NCBI RefSeq assembly: GCF_007991635.1
Contig: NZ_BJYS01000032.1
Coordinates: forward strand, 1-64,000
DNA length: 64,000 bases
Direction: 5' to 3'
Source: Adhaeribacter aerolatus
GTDB lineage: Bacteria > Bacteroidota > Bacteroidia > Cytophagales > Hymenobacteraceae
The notes below the pieces were generated by a model. It worked only from the letters and a program-made list of their open reading frames with translations. It searched no databases and was not told where the DNA came from. Below are positions 11,084 to 26,705 of the stretch, in pieces. The first letter of the stretch is position 1. The number at the start of each line of letters is the position of its first letter. A program made the position numbers and the translations under genes.

Positions 11084-12058
11084 ATGCAGGCCATCATTAT
11101 TACCCAACCCGGCAACCCCGAAGTACTGCAACCACAGGAAAGGCCAACGCCCACGCCGTCGCCATACGAAATATTAATCCGGGTAAAAGCAGCGGGCGTA
11201 AACCGGCCCGATGTTTTCCAGCGCCGGGGTGGTTATCCGCCTCCCATTGGCGTACCGGCCGATATACCGGGCCTGGAGGTGGCGGGTGTAGTAGAAACAA
11301 TTGGCGCTGAAGTTACCCGCTGGCAACCCGGCGATGCGGTTTGCGCTTTGCTGGGCGGCGGTGGCTACGCGGAGTTTGCGGTAGTAGATGCCCGCCATTG
11401 TTTGCCCTTACCATCTAGTTGGTCTTTTACCGAAGCCGCCTCTTTGCCCGAAACGGTATTTACGGTTTGGCACAATGTATTTCAGCGGGGCGCTTTACAG
11501 CCCGGCGAAAGCTTTTTGGTACACGGCGGCAGCAGCGGCATTGGCATTACAGCCATTCAGTTGGCCAAAGCCTTCGGGGCGCGCGTATTTACCACTGCCG
11601 GCAGCTCCGAAAAATGTGCCCGCTGCGAAGACTTAGGTGCCGAACGGGCCATTAACTACAAAACCGAAGATTTTGCCCAGGTGCTGCAAGCTGATGGCGT
11701 AGACGTAATCCTGGACATGATAGGCGGCGACTATACCCACAAAAACCTGAACTTGCTGCGGCCGGATGGTAGGTTAATATTTATTAATGCCATGCAGGGC
11801 GCACCCGCCGAGTTTAATATCCAGCACCTGATGCGTAATCGGTTAACCATTACCGGCAGCACCCTACGCCCCCGCTCTGCCCAATTTAAAGCAGACTTAA
11901 CAGCAGCTATTCTGGAAAACTTTTGGCCGGTGTTGGAGAGCGGGAAATTTAAGCCCGTTATTTACCAGGAGTTTCCTTTGGCCGAAGCCGCCCAGGCCCA
12001 TGCCCTGATGGAAAGCAGTCAACACATCGGAAAAATAGTATTGCGTGTTGGAGAATAG
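11084..12058 (+). CDS. NAD(P)H-quinone oxidoreductase, PIG3-like (zinc-free MDR family)
   Basis: This 324-residue cytoplasmic enzyme has the medium-chain reductase layout. The GroES-like half contains AAGVNRPDVFQRRG and lacks the zinc-ligand cysteines of alcohol dehydrogenases. The nucleotide-binding half contains VHGGSSGIGITAIQLAKAFGA (an AxxGxxG-type NADPH loop). The C-terminus has the usual LAEAAQAHALMESSQHIGKIVL. Family members reduce quinones with NADPH. It lies 58 bases after the PIG-L gene and is followed by a repeat-rich gap. Confidence 0.85.
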   Translation: MQAIIITQPGNPEVLQPQERPTPTPSPYEILIRVKAAGVNRPDVFQRRGGYPPPIGVPADIPGLEVAGVVETIGAEVTRWQPGDAVCALLGGGGYAEFAVVDARHCLPLPSSWSFTEAASLPETVFTVWHNVFQRGALQPGESFLVHGGSSGIGITAIQLAKAFGARVFTTAGSSEKCARCEDLGAERAINYKTEDFAQVLQADGVDVILDMIGGDYTHKNLNLLRPDGRLIFINAMQGAPAEFNIQHLMRNRLTITGSTLRPRSAQFKADLTAAILENFWPVLESGKFKPVIYQEFPLAEAAQAHALMESSQHIGKIVLRVGE

Positions 12059-12299
12059 TTTTTCAGTTGCTTTAACTACTCGAAGAAACAGAAGTAAATC
12101 AAGTACTAAGCAGGGGAAGAGAATGCGCTATTTCACTTTTAAGATTAATGCTTCACTTTGACGTTTAATTAAATTAACAAGTTTTATGCTATATAAAACT
12201 ACATAACAATTTCATAACTCTAACACGTTGTCAGTAGGCAATCAAAAGGTTATTTATAAATACATTCCCAAAAGAAGGCAGTGGCGTTCCGGAATAGCT

Positions 12300-12331
12300 T
12301 ATTCCCCTCCGCGGAGGGGTTAGGGGTGGGT
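12300..12331. repeat. Left 32-bp inverted repeat of the DUF559 element
   Basis: Contains ccccuccgcggagggg (as DNA, cccctccgcggagggg) followed by the G-tracts ttaggggtggg. It is the reverse complement of 12726-12757 with one mismatch in 32. It also supplies the stop codon region of the DUF559 frame. Confidence 0.85.
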
Positions 12332-12706
12332 CAACTGTTGAGACAACCGATTCTCCATCCAGATTTCAATCGTTCGGAGCACATTTTCCATATTCTTTTT
12401 TACTTCCGTATCCGTAAAACGCAAAAAACAAACCCCAAAGGATTCCAGCCGTTTCTGGCGCATTATGTCTTCCGTATAGGTATAATTGTGGCTGGCGCCA
12501 TCTATTTCAATTACTAACCCTAACTATTTACAATAGAAATCCACAATATAGGCATCCAGGGGCTTTTGCCGGTCAAAATCATAACCATTCAACTTTTTAC
12601 CCTTTAATTCATTCCAGAGAAGCACTTCGGCCAGGGTGCTGTTATTGCGGAGCTGCCGGGCCAGTTGCTTTAAGTGGGGCTGATAGGGAATAATTCTGGA
12701 CTTCAT
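12320..12706 (-). pseudogene. DUF559 endonuclease-domain gene interrupted by an in-frame TAG
   Basis: Read on the minus strand, this is a single 129-codon frame of the DUF559 family, which is related to very-short-patch-repair endonucleases. Residues 1-60 hold RNNSTLAEVLLWNELKGK and FDRQKPLDAYIVDFYCK. A TAG at 12524-12526 then falls exactly where homologues have an acidic residue, and the same frame continues with LVIEIDGASHNYT and GVCFLRFTDTEV to the stop at 12320-12322. Both catalytic-fold halves are present and in frame, so one base change explains the break. The gene fills the space between two 32-bp inverted repeats. It is either a recent pseudogene or needs readthrough. Confidence 0.85.
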
Positions 12707-19256: not shown

Positions 19257-20303
19257 CTATTTTTTAAATAAAGTATGTACCTGCTTTTCTTTAATTAAAT
19301 AATCAATTAAAGGTTTATATGTTGAGTTACTTACGTGAGAAGGATACCATTCAGAATAAGAATTATTAAGAAGATGATATTTAATTAAACGGTCCTCCTC
19401 TAACAATACCCATAAATTATGAGCTGCTCTGTTCATGAATCCTGTTAAGCCTTTTATCTTTAATCCTTCAATACCATTATTCCGACAGGATGGACAACCA
19501 CATTGAGTTAAAACATCCCATTCATTTTCATCGCAATTTCGTCCACGCCATTTACCCAATTCAGCAACTAAGCGATCACCTTTGCCAGGAAGCTGTATTA
19601 TGCCGCGAGCTGCTCGGTTACGCCACCCAGTCGAATCTATTGAATCCATTTGAAGCAAAGCTGCTATATGTAGCGTAGCCGTTCCGCCTATTCCGAATAC
19701 ATGTATTTTCTTATCTTTAAATACCTTCCTAATATTTTGCAAGTGCCCCAATATATCTTGATAAGGCATAGCTTTAGGAGCCCGTAGTAAGTTAGGCACA
19801 ATACCTCCTAAGGCAATTCTTTTCTTCTGATTTAATAAATGATCACCTTGAAGATGCGTCACATATTCATTTAAATAACGGCAGATGTGGAGAACTGGAA
19901 CAAAGCCATCGTAATTATATGCAAGATTTATTTTCATGGTATCTAACATGCAATTATACTGCTGCCCATCTGACATAGCAGGAGCAGGAATAAAATCTTG
20001 TGGGGTTGGATACCAATCTGGTTTTGCTCTTTCTATAAATTCTTTATATTCTTGCTGATTAATTTGACTGGACCGGCGCAGGAAGCTAAATGAGCCGTTG
20101 TCAAGGTAAATTGAAATATCTTTGGGAACTTCAAGATATTGGTGCAAACCAACTTCCATCGCCTTCTTCCGCTTGGTAGGTGTTTTATCAAATTCTGCAT
20201 AAGACACCATCACCGCCCGTACTTCAGGTAAAAAATAAGGTGAACTTGAATTCCATACTTTAGGATTAGGGTTACTTAAATTAAGACCGACGACTATTTC
20301 CAT
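19257..20303 (-). CDS. TGT/DpdA-like guanine transglycosylase
   Basis: I use the ATG at 20303, giving 348 residues; a longer frame to 20381 would lie wholly inside herA. Core features of the tRNA-guanine transglycosylase superfamily are present. LDNGSFSF (67-74) stands at the DSGGFQ position, with D68 as the base-recognition Asp. ALGGIVP is at 164-170 and FGIGGTATLHIAALLQM at 203-219. DSIDSTGWRNRAARG (220-234) puts D223 at the catalytic nucleophile. The zinc site is C268-x-C270-xx-C273...H295. Family members swap a guanine for preQ0/preQ1 in tRNA, or for preQ0 in DNA (DpdA). It lacks the length and order of a standard bacterial Tgt. It overlaps herA by 23 bases. DNA as substrate is inferred from the HerA-NurA context. 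Confidence 0.8.
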   Translation of the reverse strand: MEIVVGLNLSNPNPKVWNSSSPYFLPEVRAVMVSYAEFDKTPTKRKKAMEVGLHQYLEVPKDISIYLDNGSFSFLRRSSQINQQEYKEFIERAKPDWYPTPQDFIPAPAMSDGQQYNCMLDTMKINLAYNYDGFVPVLHICRYLNEYVTHLQGDHLLNQKKRIALGGIVPNLLRAPKAMPYQDILGHLQNIRKVFKDKKIHVFGIGGTATLHIAALLQMDSIDSTGWRNRAARGIIQLPGKGDRLVAELGKWRGRNCDENEWDVLTQCGCPSCRNNGIEGLKIKGLTGFMNRAAHNLWVLLEEDRLIKYHLLNNSYSEWYPSHVSNSTYKPLIDYLIKEKQVHTLFKK

Positions 20304-22089
20304 TTTGTTTTGTTTGCTCCATCTCAAGACCCTTCTGTGCATTTTCAAGCGCAACAAAAGCATCTTCTTCTTCCCTCTCACCTTGCGATTCTGATTTCTT
20401 TATTCGTACTAAGACCGGAAAGTTAATTAATTGACCGGATAAAATTGCTTCCCCAACATCTAAATCAGGAAGCATTTTGGCTTCATCTTCTCCAAGTGAT
20501 TCTATTACCCTACGTACAAAATTTTGGTCAGCAGGGTTTATCATTCTCATAATGATGTAAGAATTGCACATTGATAATGCAGTTTCATCTAAACGAGATG
20601 GTCGTTGGCTAACCATTATTAAACCAACACCAAATTTACGGCCTTCTTGAGCAATTTGCTTTGTAATAGCTATGGAACGCTCTTCGGCTGTGGTCAAAGC
20701 TTTACCAGGAACAAAGTTGTGTGCTTCTTCTAACAATAGAACAACCGGAAGTTTTAGTTCATCGCGTACTTTAGCTTCAAAAATACTGTTAGCAATAATT
20801 GTGTAAATAGTTGCTTGAAAATTACCCGTATATCCGGCCAGTGATATCACACTAATCTGACCATATTTTACAAGTTCTAAACGATTAATAGGTAATGGGT
20901 TAGCACTACGAGCAACCTTTTTATTGGTTGTTTCCATCCGCTTAAGTGCCGCTGCCGCTTTAAATACTCTCTTCTTAATACCCTCAATGGTTCTCTTATC
21001 GGTTCTACTATAAGTATCGATACGAGCCCATCCCCATTCCTGTAATTGCGTTTCAAGCTGCTGCCAATCTCCTTCATTATCCGCTTTCATCTGCACAATT
21101 CGTTCTCCGGCTTCAGCTAAATAACCTACCAACCACATATCTTGCTTAATTCCGTATTGTTCAATAGTATCTCGTCTCAAGAGTAAAGCGAGCCATTGTT
21201 CCCGCCGCTTTCTTTCACCCCCATCTTCTATAAAAAATTGTTTTGCAGCATAAAATACATCATCAAATACACCTTGCATCGTGGGAGTTAATTCATACCC
21301 TAGTGTATCTACGACCTTAGCAACTGTTTCACTCTCTTCTTCAAATACTGGAAACTCGGCATAATATCGTTGTACTTTTCCTTTCAACTTCTCAACATCA
21401 GCTAATCCTGTATAATCACCATGTGGATCAAAAATAACAATAGGATAATTCCTCTCTGCCAATTGTTCCACAATTCGACGAGCTGTAACACTTTTACCTG
21501 CTCCGGTCATTGCTAAAATCGCCAAATGCCTACTCACAATTGCATGCCCGTCAACCTTAACTGTCACACTTGGGCGATTAGATAAAGTGGCAATGTCTAA
21601 TGCACGACTCTGCTTAGTACCTAATTCTCCAATTACAACTCTTTCCAAATCGGTTGAATTTGGCATATAAGCTTGAGAAGCCGGCTGAGGAGGATACCGC
21701 ACATGGTCTAATCTGCCGCCAGCTGATCCATCAATAGGTTCTGATCCTAAAACTTGACAAACTGCTGTTACCATTTCTCTACTTAATGAAAGTACGGTAT
21801 CAAAAGGGCTAGTTCTAGTTTCAGCAAGTTCATGGCCGGCTTCCACTGGGAAGAGTGGATTAATCCGTTCGATTTGTTGAACCTTTGCCCAAAGTCGCGT
21901 TTTTTGTTTAATACTATTTTGTTCGGTAGATTTTAGATCAACATCCACAGCAATAATATCCTGTTCACGAATTGTTTCATGAGCAACAGCTAATCGGAAG
22001 GTTCGACTAGTACTTTCACCAACAAGGGTTCCTACAAAACTCTGCTTTTCGAGTTTTTCAGGTAATTCTTCAGTAGCAATTTGAGGCAT
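20281..22089 (-). CDS. herA: HerA-type hexameric DNA translocase ATPase
   Basis: This 602-residue protein has an N-terminal HAS-barrel (FVGTLVGESTSRTFRLAVAH, 18-37). A HerA/FtsK-type RecA core follows: Walker A MTGAGKS at 194-200, FDPHGDYTGL soon after, and Walker B VVLLLEEAHNFV near residue 460. Then come QEGRKFGVGLIMVSQRPSRLD and the late arginine-finger region. HerA forms a ring that pumps DNA to the NurA nuclease. The gene follows nurA by 22 bases and runs 23 bases into the TGT-like gene, so translation is probably coupled. In bacteria HerA is often found in anti-phage loci with nuclease or NADase partners. Confidence 0.92.
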   Translation of the reverse strand: MPQIATEELPEKLEKQSFVGTLVGESTSRTFRLAVAHETIREQDIIAVDVDLKSTEQNSIKQKTRLWAKVQQIERINPLFPVEAGHELAETRTSPFDTVLSLSREMVTAVCQVLGSEPIDGSAGGRLDHVRYPPQPASQAYMPNSTDLERVVIGELGTKQSRALDIATLSNRPSVTVKVDGHAIVSRHLAILAMTGAGKSVTARRIVEQLAERNYPIVIFDPHGDYTGLADVEKLKGKVQRYYAEFPVFEEESETVAKVVDTLGYELTPTMQGVFDDVFYAAKQFFIEDGGERKRREQWLALLLRRDTIEQYGIKQDMWLVGYLAEAGERIVQMKADNEGDWQQLETQLQEWGWARIDTYSRTDKRTIEGIKKRVFKAAAALKRMETTNKKVARSANPLPINRLELVKYGQISVISLAGYTGNFQATIYTIIANSIFEAKVRDELKLPVVLLLEEAHNFVPGKALTTAEERSIAITKQIAQEGRKFGVGLIMVSQRPSRLDETALSMCNSYIIMRMINPADQNFVRRVIESLGEDEAKMLPDLDVGEAILSGQLINFPVLVRIKKSESQGEREEEDAFVALENAQKGLEMEQTKQNGNSRRS

Positions 22090-22111
22090 AAGTTATATTT
22101 TAACCTAATAT

Positions 22112-23602
22112 TTAAGGATTTGGACGGAAAAGCCAATCTCGATGTGTCATATAAATAGCCTGAACAAGCAGATGTCGCATTTCAGCATCTTTAATTTCTC
22201 CCTTTTGCAAACTAACGCTTAAATGGTGTTTGATTAATTTACTATATGCATTAGTAAGCCATGTGGGTACCTTTGCGAATTTATCAGCTACATCTAAGCC
22301 AACAGGAAACCCATAACCAGGTATTAACAATGAATATAAATATGCTCGCTTAGCTGCTTCTTCAATTTGTTGTTCTCCTAAGCATTCAAACACTTCAACC
22401 CTAATTGGCTCTGTTCTGTCGGACACACTTATATAACAACCTTTAATTTTAGGAAAGCCAAGCAATGGATCTTTTAAAATACTCCAATCCATATTTGTTG
22501 CCCGAGCCTCACCTGTTAATATTGTTTGACCAGTACGAAGGCCTTTAAGTTTATTTATTATCCAAGATTCTGAACGTTGGCCAGGCTTCATTAGCATTGC
22601 CATTAGGATAGCATCAGTATAGGCTAAACGATCTAATAAAATTCCTGGAGTTTTTAAATCTGTTCTACCAAATAAATTATTGAAGTAATTTTGATTATTC
22701 TTTTTCCTTAAGCTAACAAATATGCGCTCTAGTAGTACATCTTCGCTAAATTCTCTTAATCTTCCACGCTCAACAACACCTGCAATTATAGGAACAGGAC
22801 TACGCTTCTTTGCCTCAGATATAAGTTGCTGATATAGAAATGCCATCCACGCTAAAGGATCAAACAACTTTTTTTGAATCATATCTGTATCTACACCGGG
22901 TGCTAACTTCGGATATATTTGGATACGAGCTTCCTCTAAAAATTTATTCTTTAGATCAGAGGCTAGTTGAGGGTTTGCGGCATAACTTCTCAGAAATAAA
23001 TCAATATCATTTTCAGTAAATGGACTATGTCCAGCGTAATTACCCATTAAGTACATTAAAGGACCATGAAACATTAGCAACCTCAAATTAGGTGTACGTT
23101 TCAATGCAGAAAGACCGCCTAGAAGCTCGGCAGTAATTCTAACTATATCTATAAAATCCTTGCGCTCTTTACTACCACCTTCTAAATCTCCTAAGATAAC
23201 AGGATAATAACCAAATTGCTCTCTTTCTGCTAAGTTACGTTCACCGGTTCGGACGGCATAGGAGCCTACCCGTAATAAAATAGGAATTTGTCCAGAAATT
23301 TCTACTTGTCCAACTCCCCCATCTATAAATGTTACAACTTCTCCTTGAACTTCCTGCCAATTTGCCCCATTAATATTAGAGATAGAAATAATTGGATCAG
23401 ACTCGCCACTTTTAGCTAATAATATTTTCTTCCTTAGATCTTTTATAAATTTGGATGTGTTTTCAAAATAATTTCCTCTTAGATTTTCTGCTACAATAAA
23501 AGCATTTTCTACAAGGCGCATCAACACATAAGGTTGGCGTTGTAAATCTTCTCGAACCCCTTCCTCCGTTAGATGATAATCTTGTCCATTATTTTCACTC
23601 AT
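22112..23602 (-). CDS. nurA: NurA-domain nuclease, HerA partner
   Basis: The protein has 496 residues. The NurA core shows motif I VVTFIDGGVGQVEI (Asp near residue 92, metal ligand), a middle motif IIAGVVERGRLREF, and late segments TEPIRVEVFECLG and GYGFPVGLDVADKFAKVP that resemble the C-terminal NurA blocks. NurA is an Mn-dependent 5'-3' exonuclease/endonuclease that works in the HerA ring. The N-terminal 85 residues are helical and outside the core. The start ATG overlaps the stop of the DUF6884 gene in an ATGA junction. The composition is AT-rich: 23 of 60 bases are G or C at 22501-22560. Confidence 0.82.
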   Translation of the reverse strand: MSENNGQDYHLTEEGVREDLQRQPYVLMRLVENAFIVAENLRGNYFENTSKFIKDLRKKILLAKSGESDPIISISNINGANWQEVQGEVVTFIDGGVGQVEISGQIPILLRVGSYAVRTGERNLAEREQFGYYPVILGDLEGGSKERKDFIDIVRITAELLGGLSALKRTPNLRLLMFHGPLMYLMGNYAGHSPFTENDIDLFLRSYAANPQLASDLKNKFLEEARIQIYPKLAPGVDTDMIQKKLFDPLAWMAFLYQQLISEAKKRSPVPIIAGVVERGRLREFSEDVLLERIFVSLRKKNNQNYFNNLFGRTDLKTPGILLDRLAYTDAILMAMLMKPGQRSESWIINKLKGLRTGQTILTGEARATNMDWSILKDPLLGFPKIKGCYISVSDRTEPIRVEVFECLGEQQIEEAAKRAYLYSLLIPGYGFPVGLDVADKFAKVPTWLTNAYSKLIKHHLSVSLQKGEIKDAEMRHLLVQAIYMTHRDWLFRPNP

Positions 23603-24342
23603 ATACGTTTAATTTCCACACCTAACTGAGTAAGAATCTTTCGCGCATCCAGAGTTCGGAACTGTCCTACTGGCACACCGGTTAGAATACTAAGAAGCCA
23701 CTTTGGAGCCACCCTCAATTCTCCAATTGGAACAAACCAAGATTCAAATCGTGCTGCACCTATAGGATCTTCTTTAGCCTTTATAAATGCAATATGTAAA
23801 ATTTCATTTACATTATATTTTATTTCTTTGCCGTGGAAAGTGATTATTTGTGCTAATCCAGTCGCATCAATCTCTGGCGGTGGGGCTTGATAAAGCCATT
23901 CATATAAATTAGAGACTTGTTTACCTATACTTCCTTGCGTATGAATAATTTTAGGCTCACTTTCTTGTACATACCCGGTTAGCCTATTTAACTGGGAAGG
24001 ATTTAAAGCTTCAAGATAATTATTTGACATACAAACCATTACCTCTTGAAGTAACTCAGTTTTACGTTGAATAAGCCCATTCAGCTTTTCTTCAACTAAT
24101 GGTTGAAGTTCGCGAGCCCTAACAAGAGTCATTTTCCTATCATAATTACCAATTAGCTCATCGGCTGCTATTAAAGAATGTTCGGCAGAAAGGATAAAGG
24201 TTAAAGGAAGGTTACTATTGGGAGATTCGCGATATTTACGTAAAACTTTAAAAAATGGCCCATCATATCTTTCAATTGCCGGTAATAAAACTGTTGTGTT
24301 TTTTTTTAATTGCGAGCAAGACAATAATAATAATCGAGTCAT
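23599..24342 (-). CDS. DUF6884-like protein
   Basis: This 247-residue protein resembles DUF6884 in its first 90 residues: LLLLSCSQLKK (4-14), RYDGPFFKVLRKYR (25-38), FILSAEHSLI (49-58) and IGNYDRKMT (64-72). The Ser-Cys-Ser and Ala-Glu-His motifs suggest a catalytic or nucleotide-binding pocket, but I know no established reaction. The remaining 150 residues include a basic helical part. The C-terminal VAPKWLLSILTGVPVGQFRTLDARKILTQLG may be a DNA- or nucleotide-binding helical unit. It ends in an ATGA overlap with nurA, so it belongs to the same system. A role in handling the deazaguanine product is a guess. Confidence 0.65.
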   Translation of the reverse strand: MTRLLLLSCSQLKKNTTVLLPAIERYDGPFFKVLRKYRESPNSNLPLTFILSAEHSLIAADELIGNYDRKMTLVRARELQPLVEEKLNGLIQRKTELLQEVMVCMSNNYLEALNPSQLNRLTGYVQESEPKIIHTQGSIGKQVSNLYEWLYQAPPPEIDATGLAQIITFHGKEIKYNVNEILHIAFIKAKEDPIGAARFESWFVPIGELRVAPKWLLSILTGVPVGQFRTLDARKILTQLGVEIKRI

Positions 24343-24461
24343 TTAAATAAAACTTGGGAATAGTTTATTAAAAGCTAAAGATTAAACAAATTGATAGGCG
24401 ACTGAATTATTTAATTAGAGGTAAAGCTTTTTTATTAGATAACGTTACTTGTGAGTTACAA

Positions 24462-25145
24462 TTAAATCCAACCTTTCGCTTTAGCTTCTTCAAATCCTCT
24501 GGCGCGCAAAATAGAAGCTGGGTTATCAAGCTGACCATAACCCCATTCATTGAGCACATTTCTATTCCCATTATAATCGGTATGAGAATCAAATCTTACG
24601 ATATCTAGTACTCCTAGTTCTTTGGCCATCTTCCAGGTTTCAGCTTTAGAAAGATACATCAGGGGTGTATGAATACTTACATCTGTATCCATTGCTAACG
24701 ATAATGATGTTTGTAAAGAATCTAAAAAAGCCCTGCGACAATCAGGATAGCCAGAGTAATCAGTTTCGCACATTCCACCAACTAAATTAGTTATGCCTTT
24801 GTTGTATGCATAACTAGCAGCAATTGTAAGAAAAAGGGCATTACGACCTGGAACAAAAGAAGAAGGTAAATTTTTATTCCGCTCATGTGGTTCAGCAATA
24901 TCTTTATTATACTCAATAAGTGAAGAACCACTAAGTGTACCTTGTATATTAAAAATAGTGAATTCAACTCCAGCTTTAGCGGCTATAATCCCTGCCTGCT
25001 CTAACTCTACGTTATGTTTTTGCCCGTAATCAAATCCTAAACCTTCTACATGATTAAAAATTTGCTTTGCCCAAAACAAACACGTTGTAGAGTCTTGCCC
25101 ACCTGAAAGTAGTACTACGGCTGCATCCCTTCTTTCATTTTCCAT
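24462..25145 (-). CDS. queC: QueC-like 7-cyano-7-deazaguanine synthase homologue lacking the zinc cysteines
   Basis: The 227-residue protein has the QueC PP-loop VLLSGGQDSTT (11-21), FDYGQKHNVELE, VPGRNALFLTIAASYA and the substrate motif CETDYSGYPDCR. These support an ATP-dependent deazaguanine (CDG to preQ0) reaction or a related adenylation. The C-terminal zinc knuckle is altered: canonical HTCY is HTDY, and the aligned CGxCxxC block reads GYGQLDNPASILRARGF, without a gap. All four cysteine ligands are gone (D, Q, N and S in their places). It is therefore a divergent QueC, as seen in QueC-like proteins of immune operons. QueD lies 42 bases upstream. Confidence 0.85.
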   Translation of the reverse strand: MENERRDAAVVLLSGGQDSTTCLFWAKQIFNHVEGLGFDYGQKHNVELEQAGIIAAKAGVEFTIFNIQGTLSGSSLIEYNKDIAEPHERNKNLPSSFVPGRNALFLTIAASYAYNKGITNLVGGMCETDYSGYPDCRRAFLDSLQTSLSLAMDTDVSIHTPLMYLSKAETWKMAKELGVLDIVRFDSHTDYNGNRNVLNEWGYGQLDNPASILRARGFEEAKAKGWI

Positions 25146-25187
25146 TAATAAATAATTTTTAGAGTCTCGTACTAAGGATTTGCGCAG

Positions 25188-25664
25188 TTATATATTTACT
25201 ACAGAGTAGGCGCTATTAGGTATTTCTTCTTCACTTAGTATTACTGAACGCTCTAACTCTGCATAACAGGTGTCTGTCTCTCTAATCAGTACCCGAATTT
25301 CGCTGATACTATTTTTAATTAGAAACGAATAACCATCCTTTATTATAAAATCAATAACAAATTGGCAAAGATTCTCCGAAGTACTATTATACGGTAATAC
25401 AAAATATTTCGAACCTAATGTATTGAGCACATTTATCAAATCTTCGTCGCCTTCTGCTACTAGTGTTGCATGGTCCCAAGCTTCAATAAGTGGATTAATC
25501 AACGCTTTTAGGTCTGCAAAGTCAACAACCATACCTTCCTCATTAAGCATTCCCTTTAATTCAATTGTCATTTTATATGAATGCCCATGTAAATTTCTAC
25601 AATTACCCTTATGGTTAGGAAGCCGATGAGCACCTTCCCAGCGGAATTGCTTAGCAATCTTCAT
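25188..25664 (-). CDS. queD: QueD-like 6-carboxy-5,6,7,8-tetrahydropterin synthase
   Basis: The 158-residue protein has the 6-pyruvoyl-tetrahydropterin synthase-like fold signature. Zinc ligands are H13 (GAHRLP), H26 and H28 (NLHGHSYK), and the catalytic Cys22 fits CxxxHGH. The Asp-His pair is WDHATL (D64, H65). STSENLC and VLIRETDTCYAE match the substrate pocket. QueD converts dihydroneopterin triphosphate to carboxy-tetrahydropterin, the step before QueE in preQ0 synthesis. It is the first gene of the six-gene cluster. No folE or queE is present in the window, so these steps must be supplied elsewhere. Confidence 0.92.
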   Translation of the reverse strand: MKIAKQFRWEGAHRLPNHKGNCRNLHGHSYKMTIELKGMLNEEGMVVDFADLKALINPLIEAWDHATLVAEGDEDLINVLNTLGSKYFVLPYNSTSENLCQFVIDFIIKDGYSFLIKNSISEIRVLIRETDTCYAELERSVILSEEEIPNSAYSVVNI

Positions 25665-25814: not shown

Positions 25815-26705
25815 TTACTCCCTATACCCTCCCTTAAAAACCTCATTTACATGCCAGGCAGTAAAATCCGGATTAGGATAGAAGGCTTTTTTCTGCGGCG
25901 GTTTAATATTCTTCCCGTGATGCTGGATTAGCCACATATCGGCACCCTGTCCGTTTACTTCATCCGAAACCAGCATTCGTAATTCCGGGCTTACCGTAAA
26001 AGCTCCCAAGTCGAAAAGTTTGTGGTGGGTGGCACATAAAGCCAACCCATTTACTTCTTCATCTGGCCCGCCCGCCTGGTGCCATTTAATATGAGCAGCT
26101 TCCAGGGCCAATATTTTATTCTTCAGCCGCACGCTAAACCCACAAATGGCACATTGGTATTCGTACGCTTTCAGAATACTTTCGCGGAACTGCGGGTCAC
26201 GCCTTCGGATTTGTTTGGCACCAGTTGGGGTTAGAGCAATATTTAAACCTACTGCATCCAGAATATCCTGGTGCAGGGTTTCGGGAAAATTCTGATCCAG
26301 TATTCTTTCGGCAATAGTTCTCAATAAATCCGGGTTAGCCTTTAGCCGTTGTACTACTTCTTCCGGGAACCGCCCCTGCACATTATTGGTCAGCAAATAT
26401 TTAGAACGGTAATCGTGTTTGGTATTCAGCAATTCAGGTTTATTAAATTGCCAAAGGCCATCGTTAGCCAAACGAATAAAAGGATAATACGCGTGGGTTT
26501 TGCGGGGTGGGCCAAAATCAGCTAATAAATTATTCAGCTTTGGTTCTATAGCTGCGTAAGAGATAAACCCGAGGTTGCCCCGTTGTATTTCGCCGAGGGC
26601 CAGCAGCATTAAAAGCGGCTTATGTGGGGCGCGGGTGCCTTTGCTTTGCCAGGTTTTAATATTGCTGAATTGCTCTAATACTTGTTTGTCGTCCATCGGG
26701 TGCAA
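25815..26705 (-). CDS. SBD-HNH restriction endonuclease (phosphorothioate-dependent type IV-like)
   Basis: The 296-residue protein has an N-terminal domain with RAPHKPLLMLLALGEIQRG (25-43) and GPPRKTHAYYPFIRL (66-79), the pattern of sulfur-binding domains that read phosphorothioated DNA. A C-terminal HNH domain has CAICGF (C185, C188), LEAAHIKWHQAGG (H205) and NGLALCATHHKLFDLGAFTV (N219, H227-H228). The pair resembles ScoMcrA-type enzymes that cut modified foreign DNA. The whole frame is intact. Its GC-richer codon use differs from the adjacent queD cluster, so it may be a separate acquisition. Its start could also be the ATG three codons in. Confidence 0.85.
   Translation of the reverse strand: MHPMDDKQVLEQFSNIKTWQSKGTRAPHKPLLMLLALGEIQRGNLGFISYAAIEPKLNNLLADFGPPRKTHAYYPFIRLANDGLWQFNKPELLNTKHDYRSKYLLTNNVQGRFPEEVVQRLKANPDLLRTIAERILDQNFPETLHQDILDAVGLNIALTPTGAKQIRRRDPQFRESILKAYEYQCAICGFSVRLKNKILALEAAHIKWHQAGGPDEEVNGLALCATHHKLFDLGAFTVSPELRMLVSDEVNGQGADMWLIQHHGKNIKPPQKKAFYPNPDFTAWHVNEVFKGGYRE

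Follow-up and report, generated by a model that had tools for sequence, protein, structure and literature searches.

Dpd islands, which hold up to eleven genes, bring together genes for preQ0 (7-cyano-7-deazaguanine), a tRNA-guanine transglycosylase (TGT) of the DpdA family and a DUF6884/DpdC-like protein. In the Dpd system of the S. Montevideo type, dpdABC carry out modification and dpdD-K restriction. In HerA-SIR2, HerA-DUF4297 and the archaeal/Deinococcus HerA-NurA, a hexameric HerA motor is paired with a nuclease or another effector, and none of them is known to have a base-modifying partner. The BREX-Related Capture (BRC) system (PMC12839542) has a HerA/FtsK translocase and, in a subset, a TGT, and deazaguanine self-marking was proposed for it. 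The six-gene cluster analysed here, queD-queC-DUF6884-nurA-herA-TGT, combines the three Dpd-like elements with HerA-NurA. It lies in a stretch of 64,000 nucleotides of Adhaeribacter aerolatus (contig NZ_BJYS01000032.1, positions 1 to 64,000), which is called the window below. A sequence-only reading had taken it for a small modification/restriction or immune operon with deazaguanine chemistry, and this proposal was strengthened by the recurring gene order, a separate Tgt of the host and DUF6884-TGT fusions in dpd islands. On balance, the cluster is probably a 7-deazaguanine restriction-modification system related to Dpd. It would differ from Dpd in that HerA-NurA, or HerA-Mre11-Rad50 in one form, stands in place of DpdD-K, and its TGT is a distant homologue.

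All six open reading frames (ORFs) were found on the minus strand, from 25664 to 19257, in the order claimed earlier. Profiles were run on the cluster and neighbouring proteins, nine of them with Pfam, nine with PADLOC and seven with NCBIfam. The genes are as follows.

queD, 25188 to 25664, minus strand: 158 aa, PTPS family; PF01242 95.2 bits, TIGR03367 87.5 bits (just below the cut-off of 89.25)
queC, 24462 to 25145, minus strand: 227 aa, 7-cyano-7-deazaguanine synthase; Pfam QueC 213.4 bits, TIGR00364 211.7 bits (cut-off 150.3)
DUF6884 gene, 23599 to 24342, minus strand: 247 aa; PF21818 45.6 bits (cut-off 30)
nurA, 22112 to 23602, minus strand: 496 aa; PF09376 31.7 bits (cut-off 21)
herA, 20281 to 22089, minus strand: 602 aa; PF01935 HerA/DUF87 88.1 bits (cut-off 23.2), PADLOC HerA 197 bits
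TGT/DpdA-like gene, 19257 to 20303, minus strand: 348 aa; Pfam TGT 25.7 bits (cut-off 26.3), PADLOC DpdA 1.8e-9

The spacing given in the sequence-only reading was exact. There are 42 bases between queD and queC, 119 between queC and the DUF6884 gene and 22 between nurA and herA, while DUF6884 and nurA overlap by 4 bases (ATGA) and herA and the TGT gene by 23. The listed TGT ORF begins too early, with a GTG at 20381. The ATG at 20303 is the better start because it gives the 23-base overlap with herA. Only four of the six genes, those for DUF6884, NurA, HerA and TGT, form the conserved unit.

A search for the order across Bacteroidota had been proposed. The four-gene order does recur in other genomes, mostly cyanobacterial, and Bacteroidota itself was nearly blank: TGT matched in 3 of the 395 genomes sampled from the host's phylum, the host being one of them, and the host gave the only NurA match among 395 genomes of its class. 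Relatives came from an Aulosira plasmid, from the Acaryochloris metagenome-assembled genome G730 and from two genome samples drawn around G730. Three plasmid records matched the TGT, one of them the cyanobacterial Aulosira plasmid. G730 was found by a single NurA scan of genome contigs, and its assembly is without a TGT of the window family. DUF6884 matched in 10 of 386 genomes of the phylum of G730: strongly in four (G730, G815, G933 and G943), as a fusion protein in four (G757, G831, G835 and G915), as a stand-alone protein of 239 aa in G777 and as a 26-residue stub in G821. TGT matches were obtained in 9 of 388 genomes of the cyanobacterial class of G933; seven reached at least 564 bits, G848 was cut by a contig edge and the fusion of G835 was weak. 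G943 was not among these matches and presumably was not drawn in that sample. DUF6884, HerA and NurA or a NurA-like protein stood alongside the TGT in all six genomes of at least 564 bits with both flanks readable; in the seventh, the stretch begins inside HerA at a contig edge. In G176, a TGT 30% identical to that of the window stood without matches to the remaining cluster proteins over the 18 kb read. NurA searches of viral contigs and of plasmids gave no match.

The conserved genes occur in different arrangements. Form A, DUF6884-NurA-HerA-TGT, is present with its four genes in the window, L067, L068 and L069, and the ATGA junction of DUF6884 and nurA is retained in L067 and L068; L066 begins inside HerA. 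Form B, DUF6884-HerA'-NurA'-TGT, is found in L032, L033, L034 and L065, among which L032 and L065 are near-twins (TGT 98% identical). The Aulosira plasmid has form C, in which DUF6884 and TGT are separated by a divergent HerA, a Mre11-like and a Rad50-like gene and by further genes. In this comparison, one and the same TGT family is accompanied by HerA/NurA of two lineages and by one HerA-Mre11-Rad50 set. Between L032 of form B and L068 of form A, the TGT is 77% identical, HerA is 22% identical and NurA has no detectable similarity. In the tree, the form-B TGTs of L032 and L065 group with the form-A TGTs of L066-L068 and a phage copy (100% support). These identities and the tree indicate a constant marking gene beside a motor-nuclease cassette that is swapped, a pattern also seen in restriction-modification loci. 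TGTs that are 77% identical beside differing HerA-NurA cassettes are expected if a base-marking module pairs with exchangeable nucleases.

HerA and NurA are encoded side by side in the window, and both are over their Pfam cut-offs. By eye, HerA has Walker A (MTGAGKS) and Walker B (LLLEEAH) motifs, and NurA has an FIDGG motif at D94. NurA is 59-64% identical in L019, L067, L068 and L069 and HerA is 57-71% identical in L067-L069; Pfam confirms HerA and NurA in L067 and NurA in L068. In L019, an ORF at 11473-12444 joins an N-terminal HNH domain to HerA, with a sub-threshold TRADD-N-like match, and the stretch ends inside it. HerA-NurA and Mre11-Rad50 are end-resection machines, and the Pfam authors connected the DUF6884 protein YfjM with DNA lesions (PMC11701544). 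Such parts could make up a DNA-repair module: DUF6884 would recognise base damage, the role suggested for YfjM, HerA-NurA would carry out end resection, and lesions would be repaired or tagged by the TGT. We regard it as improbable. The distribution is rare and patchy, as seen from the TGT counts in the host's phylum, the cassettes swap, the AT-rich block lies beside restriction-type genes, and the local queC-queD pair argues that a deazaguanine product matters.

The link of DUF6884 and TGT with deazaguanine chemistry comes from dpd islands. In four cyanobacterial genomes (loci L085, L086, L087 and L088), DUF6884 and TGT are fused into a protein of about 700 aa. Both domains passed the Pfam cut-offs in the three fusions that were run, the L088 fusion not being among them. 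PADLOC was applied to L085 and L088 of the four loci. It read L085 as queD-queE-queC-fusion-DpdE-DpdF-DpdG (DpdA 3e-130, DpdE 2.5e-250, DpdF 2.4e-222), where the DUF6884 part matched DpdC at 4.2e-9, and L088 as fusion-DpdE-DpdF, with DpdC at 9.6e-10. On a haloarchaeal plasmid, DUF6884 and TGT come after homologues of DpdJ and DpdK. The fusion, standing beside preQ0 genes in dpd islands, ties DUF6884 and TGT to deazaguanine DNA chemistry. In addition, the GATOR-GC preprint (PMC11888242) names the dpdC domain as DUF6884. From the fusions, this naming and the haloarchaeal neighbourhood, we infer that the DUF6884 protein is a DpdC-like partner of the TGT and a candidate for the step from preQ0 to 7-amido-7-deazaguanine (ADG).

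Two motifs, CxxxK and LSAxxG, are given for DUF6884 in PMC11701544; CxxxK is present in the window protein, and LSAxxG reads LSAEHS. A C-terminal extension of about 95 aa is common to this protein and the cyanobacterial full-length homologues. Among PADLOC models, it matches M57A (1.9e-10), the DUF6884 component of the candidate system PDC-M57. The cluster is unlike PDC-M57 in that a scan of eight further window proteins gave no match to components of that system. In the haloarchaeal loci L047 (8649-11265) and L049 (8674-11276), DUF6884-TGT is followed by a GHKL-type ATPase, possibly another partner of the marking pair.

Residues D68, D103, D223, C268, C270, C273 and H295 were invariant in all 11 TGTs aligned. 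C268, C270, C273 and H295 are the TGT zinc ligands. D68, D103 and D223 align with what we take, from canonical TGT numbering, to be catalytic and substrate positions, the alignment with 1iq8 being computed. Profiles of the TGT family matched the archaeosine TGT (ArcTGT) structure 1iq8 and the DpdA structure 7ui4, and in PADLOC the window TGT reached 35 bits against DpdA, compared with 433 for the L085 dpd fusion. By these profiles, the window TGT is distantly related to both DpdA and archaeosine TGT. The operon TGT, which scored 22 bits, was rejected as the host's tRNA Tgt, since contig C45 encodes a canonical Tgt of 523 bits. The sequence-only reading would have been undermined if the operon TGT had been the only Tgt of the host, and it is not.

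The supply of preQ0 was traced through the genome. The gene described earlier as QueC-like encodes a full-length QueC by profile, although without the four zinc cysteines. In an alignment with nine other QueC-family proteins, it retains SGGQDS, YGQKHNVE, VPGRN and YPDC, the ATP and substrate motifs being as defined in PMC13329287. Two of these ten proteins, the window QueC and that of G1143 (L036), make up a subgroup free of zinc cysteines in which the other catalytic motifs are present. Among 39 relatives, QueC above 200 bits was found in the host and G1143 only, and a full-length QueC was found in none of the seven other genus members (G1116-G1122, one of which is only 78% complete). PF06508 matched 38 of the 39 relatives at E <=0.001, 37 of them above the cut-off. 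Among the scores listed beyond the host, G1143 had 216.8 bits, G1134 had 72.9 bits and all others had 32.4 bits or less. The low matches are nearly all partial, in frames of about 370-680 aa, and we read them as probable other ATP-pyrophosphatases; in G1140, which is related at the order level, the 32.4-bit match, in a frame of 442 aa, covers most of the model. That the window queC is an ordinary queuosine gene of the host was rejected, as the seven other genus members have no full-length QueC.

In all five other carrier genomes tested (G730, G815, G933, G943 and G125, the last with a degenerate cluster), QueC above 200 bits was encoded away from the cluster, and the nine recurring stretches (L032-L034, L065-L070) yielded neither queC nor queD. 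Since the genus is without another full-length QueC and the other carriers have theirs away from the cluster, queD-queC appear to restore the preQ0 supply locally, and the pair was presumably added in a lineage without QueC. The further genes lie elsewhere: FolE on contig C36 (the window was not searched for a second folE), a QueE-like gene on contig C17 with 139 bits to the E. coli-type model (cut-off 200) and two more PTPS genes. Thus preQ0 genes are present at the locus itself, as queD and queC, with QueE and FolE elsewhere in the genome. The absence of queE and tgt nearby, as claimed earlier, agrees with the genome's sole QueE match and its canonical Tgt lying on other contigs.

QueC-family and TGT-family proteins also occur together in type IV CBASS (cyclic oligonucleotide-based antiphage signalling system; PMC11996544), where they are Cap9 and Cap10. 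A QueC-family protein is also part of qatABCD. On the CBASS pattern, a QueC-like ligase and a TGT-like protein would deazaguanylate a protein and so activate HerA or NurA. It is a very improbable explanation here. N-terminal Met-Gly is the acceptor described for NDG in PMC13279940, and none of the six window proteins begins with it (MKIA, MENE, MTRL, MSEN, MPQI and MEIV). No CD-NTase or Qat partner was found among the proteins scanned, the nine recurring stretches are without queC, QueC is canonical in size and profile and of the preQ0-synthase type, and the TGT has retained all of its catalytic residues. Type IV CBASS was rejected for the lack of a CD-NTase among the scanned proteins and of an N-terminal glycine substrate, and the earlier hint of it did not hold.

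In the restriction-modification system that we favour, FolE and QueE of the host, whose genes are present, would make preQ0 together with QueD and QueC of the operon. The DpdA-like TGT would put preQ0 in place of guanine in the cell's own DNA. Hydrolysis of this base to ADG may fall to the DpdC-like DUF6884 protein, as homology and the fusion in dpd islands suggest. HerA would pump DNA into NurA, which would degrade it, probably from the ends. The marked chromosome would be spared, and unmarked phage or plasmid DNA would be attacked. As the comparison of forms shows, the marking pair is constant and the translocase-nuclease cassette exchangeable.

A viral copy of the TGT bears on this mechanism. 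A scan of viral contigs with a two-sequence alignment found nothing, and one with five sequences gave L045, an IMG/VR contig (1-17041) that is from a phage, as its major head protein and terminase indicate. Its TGT is 54% identical to that of the window. Immediately upstream and in frame with it, 22 residues match HerA of the window type (73%, E 4.8e-5). This remnant suggests that the phage acquired the last part of an operon of this type and retained the marking enzyme only. The lone TGT fits self-marking against restriction, like an anti-restriction gene, though the HerA remnant is short. The polarity could also be reversed: the TGT would mark foreign or replicating DNA, or the deazaguanine of phages would be sensed, and HerA-NurA would destroy the marked DNA, similarly to GrwAB. 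HerA-based defence effectors are known. GrwAB attacks deazaguanine-modified phages (PMC12137116). We think reversed polarity unlikely, because a system that did no more than sense marks could do without its own TGT, QueC or DpdC-like enzyme, and a phage with a lone TGT would mark itself for destruction. The genes upstream of the TGT in L045 include PAPS reductase-like genes and others that are CRISPR RAMP-like by eye only. In a phage collection, TGT matches were limited to five records, all Sulfolobus viruses, and the TGTs of STSV1, STSV2 and the STSV4 record are about 26% identical to the window TGT.

Several results weigh against a restriction-modification system of the Dpd kind. The window TGT is slightly below the Pfam TGT cut-off, its NCBIfam DpdA score is 33 bits (2.5e-8) against an equivalog cut-off of 200, and among solved structures the profile of its family is nearer the archaeosine tRNA TGT 1iq8 (7.2e-9) than DpdA 7ui4 (4.3e-5). 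The DUF6884 protein matches the DpdC model weakly (PADLOC 0.0028), and a DUF6884 profile search found no related solved structure. The host QueE is below the cut-off of every QueE model. The partner ATPase DpdB had no match among the nine cluster and neighbouring proteins scanned with Pfam and PADLOC, the rest of the genome not having been searched, and DpdD-DpdK had none among the nine scanned with PADLOC. The cluster fails as a member of Dpd, with no DpdB and no DpdD-K among these proteins. NurA' of form B is weak (Pfam NurA 6e-4 in L034, 0.04 in L033 and none in L032), and hhalign found no link between the form-A and form-B NurA sets. An in-frame stop interrupts nurA of L069 close to its start. 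G125 (L014, 8797-11003) is degenerate, with DUF6884, a NurA cut to 219 aa and no HerA, and its TGT is 24% identical and without the zinc motif. Between the window and L068, HerA (71%) and NurA (60%) exceed TGT (55%) and DUF6884 (36%) in identity, which indicates that the units of the cluster also evolve at different rates. Finally, DUF6884 was found in 19 plasmid records. Among the five examined, three had a TGT close by (Aulosira, Haladaptatus and one Natrinema), and none was annotated in Shinella or another Natrinema.

The proximity to the archaeosine structure would be explained if the TGT, archaeosine-like or other, modified tRNA and were a chance neighbour of a HerA-NurA repair or defence pair. 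The L067 TGT agrees with this in scoring higher with TgtA (48 bits) than with DpdA (35 bits); the order is opposite for the window TGT (DpdA 33, TgtA 25). We find a tRNA target doubtful at best. The 1iq8 match spans only positions 68-327 in an ArcTGT chain of 582 residues. In two phyla, and with two HerA/NurA lineages, the four genes are kept as a set, and the DUF6884-TGT fusions sit in islands of dpd, a system known to act on DNA.

Beyond the restriction-modification reading of this cluster, a wider proposal can be made, for which we see about even chances. Deazaguanine restriction-modification systems of an undescribed family would each join a single marking pair, the DpdA-like TGT and the DpdC-like DUF6884 protein, to one of several interchangeable motors that process DNA ends (two HerA-NurA lineages and HerA-Mre11-Rad50). 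The base mark would let a resection machine tell self from foreign DNA, a role like that of Chi for RecBCD but at the level of the base, and a stolen TGT would give phages an escape. No earlier description of the four-gene combination was found among the matches listed in open-licence literature, where HerA, NurA and 7-deazaguanine co-occur only within the reference list of one paper. The combination is therefore called undescribed in that literature, not unknown. If the proposal is true, HerA-NurA and Mre11-Rad50 end-processing, known mainly from repair, would be linked to a modified base that discriminates self from non-self, and dpd-type marking would be a portable module that pairs with different nucleases. 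A role is also proposed for DUF6884, a Pfam family of unknown function. In a four-gene system, compact in comparison with dpd islands, the DpdA- and DpdC-like roles are testable. The operon brings its own QueC into a genus with no other found, so the dependence on preQ0 is cleanly testable.

BRC was compared with the cluster as well. Its core consists of PglZ, DUF6079, STAND-NTPase and DUF4007, with TGT and GNAT in a subset only, and no DpdB or DpdC homologue was found by its authors (PMC12839542). Unlike BRC, the window cluster includes NurA and DUF6884. BRC was rejected, as none of the four core proteins was found among the nine window proteins scanned and only HerA and TGT are shared. On the haloarchaeal plasmids L016 and L017, distant TGTs (24-32%) adjoin genes annotated as BREX ATP-binding proteins and resemble BRC as PMC12839542 presents it; L017 also carries GNAT and queC-queE-queD.

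The block is AT-rich, as the sequence-only reading noted. Both of its G+C counts (23/60 and 37/60) were exact, and the block has 37.1% G+C against 46.4% in the remaining window, where the minimum among 224 sliding windows of 6,408 bases outside the block is 43.6%. Scans for promoters and terminators gave chance-level results. In four genus members, no copy of the operon was present beside the flanking epimerase-like gene in 19.5 kb each. Synteny past this gene is not kept, so the boundaries of the insertion are not defined. The neighbours include a YhcG nuclease-domain protein of 128 aa (Pfam, PADLOC) and the following gene.

Phosphorothioate-DNA-type HNH restriction endonuclease, 25815-26705, same strand as the cluster, just upstream of queD: NF045808 333 bits

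Two small gene pairs near the cluster have the look of toxin-antitoxin pairs, as judged by eye.

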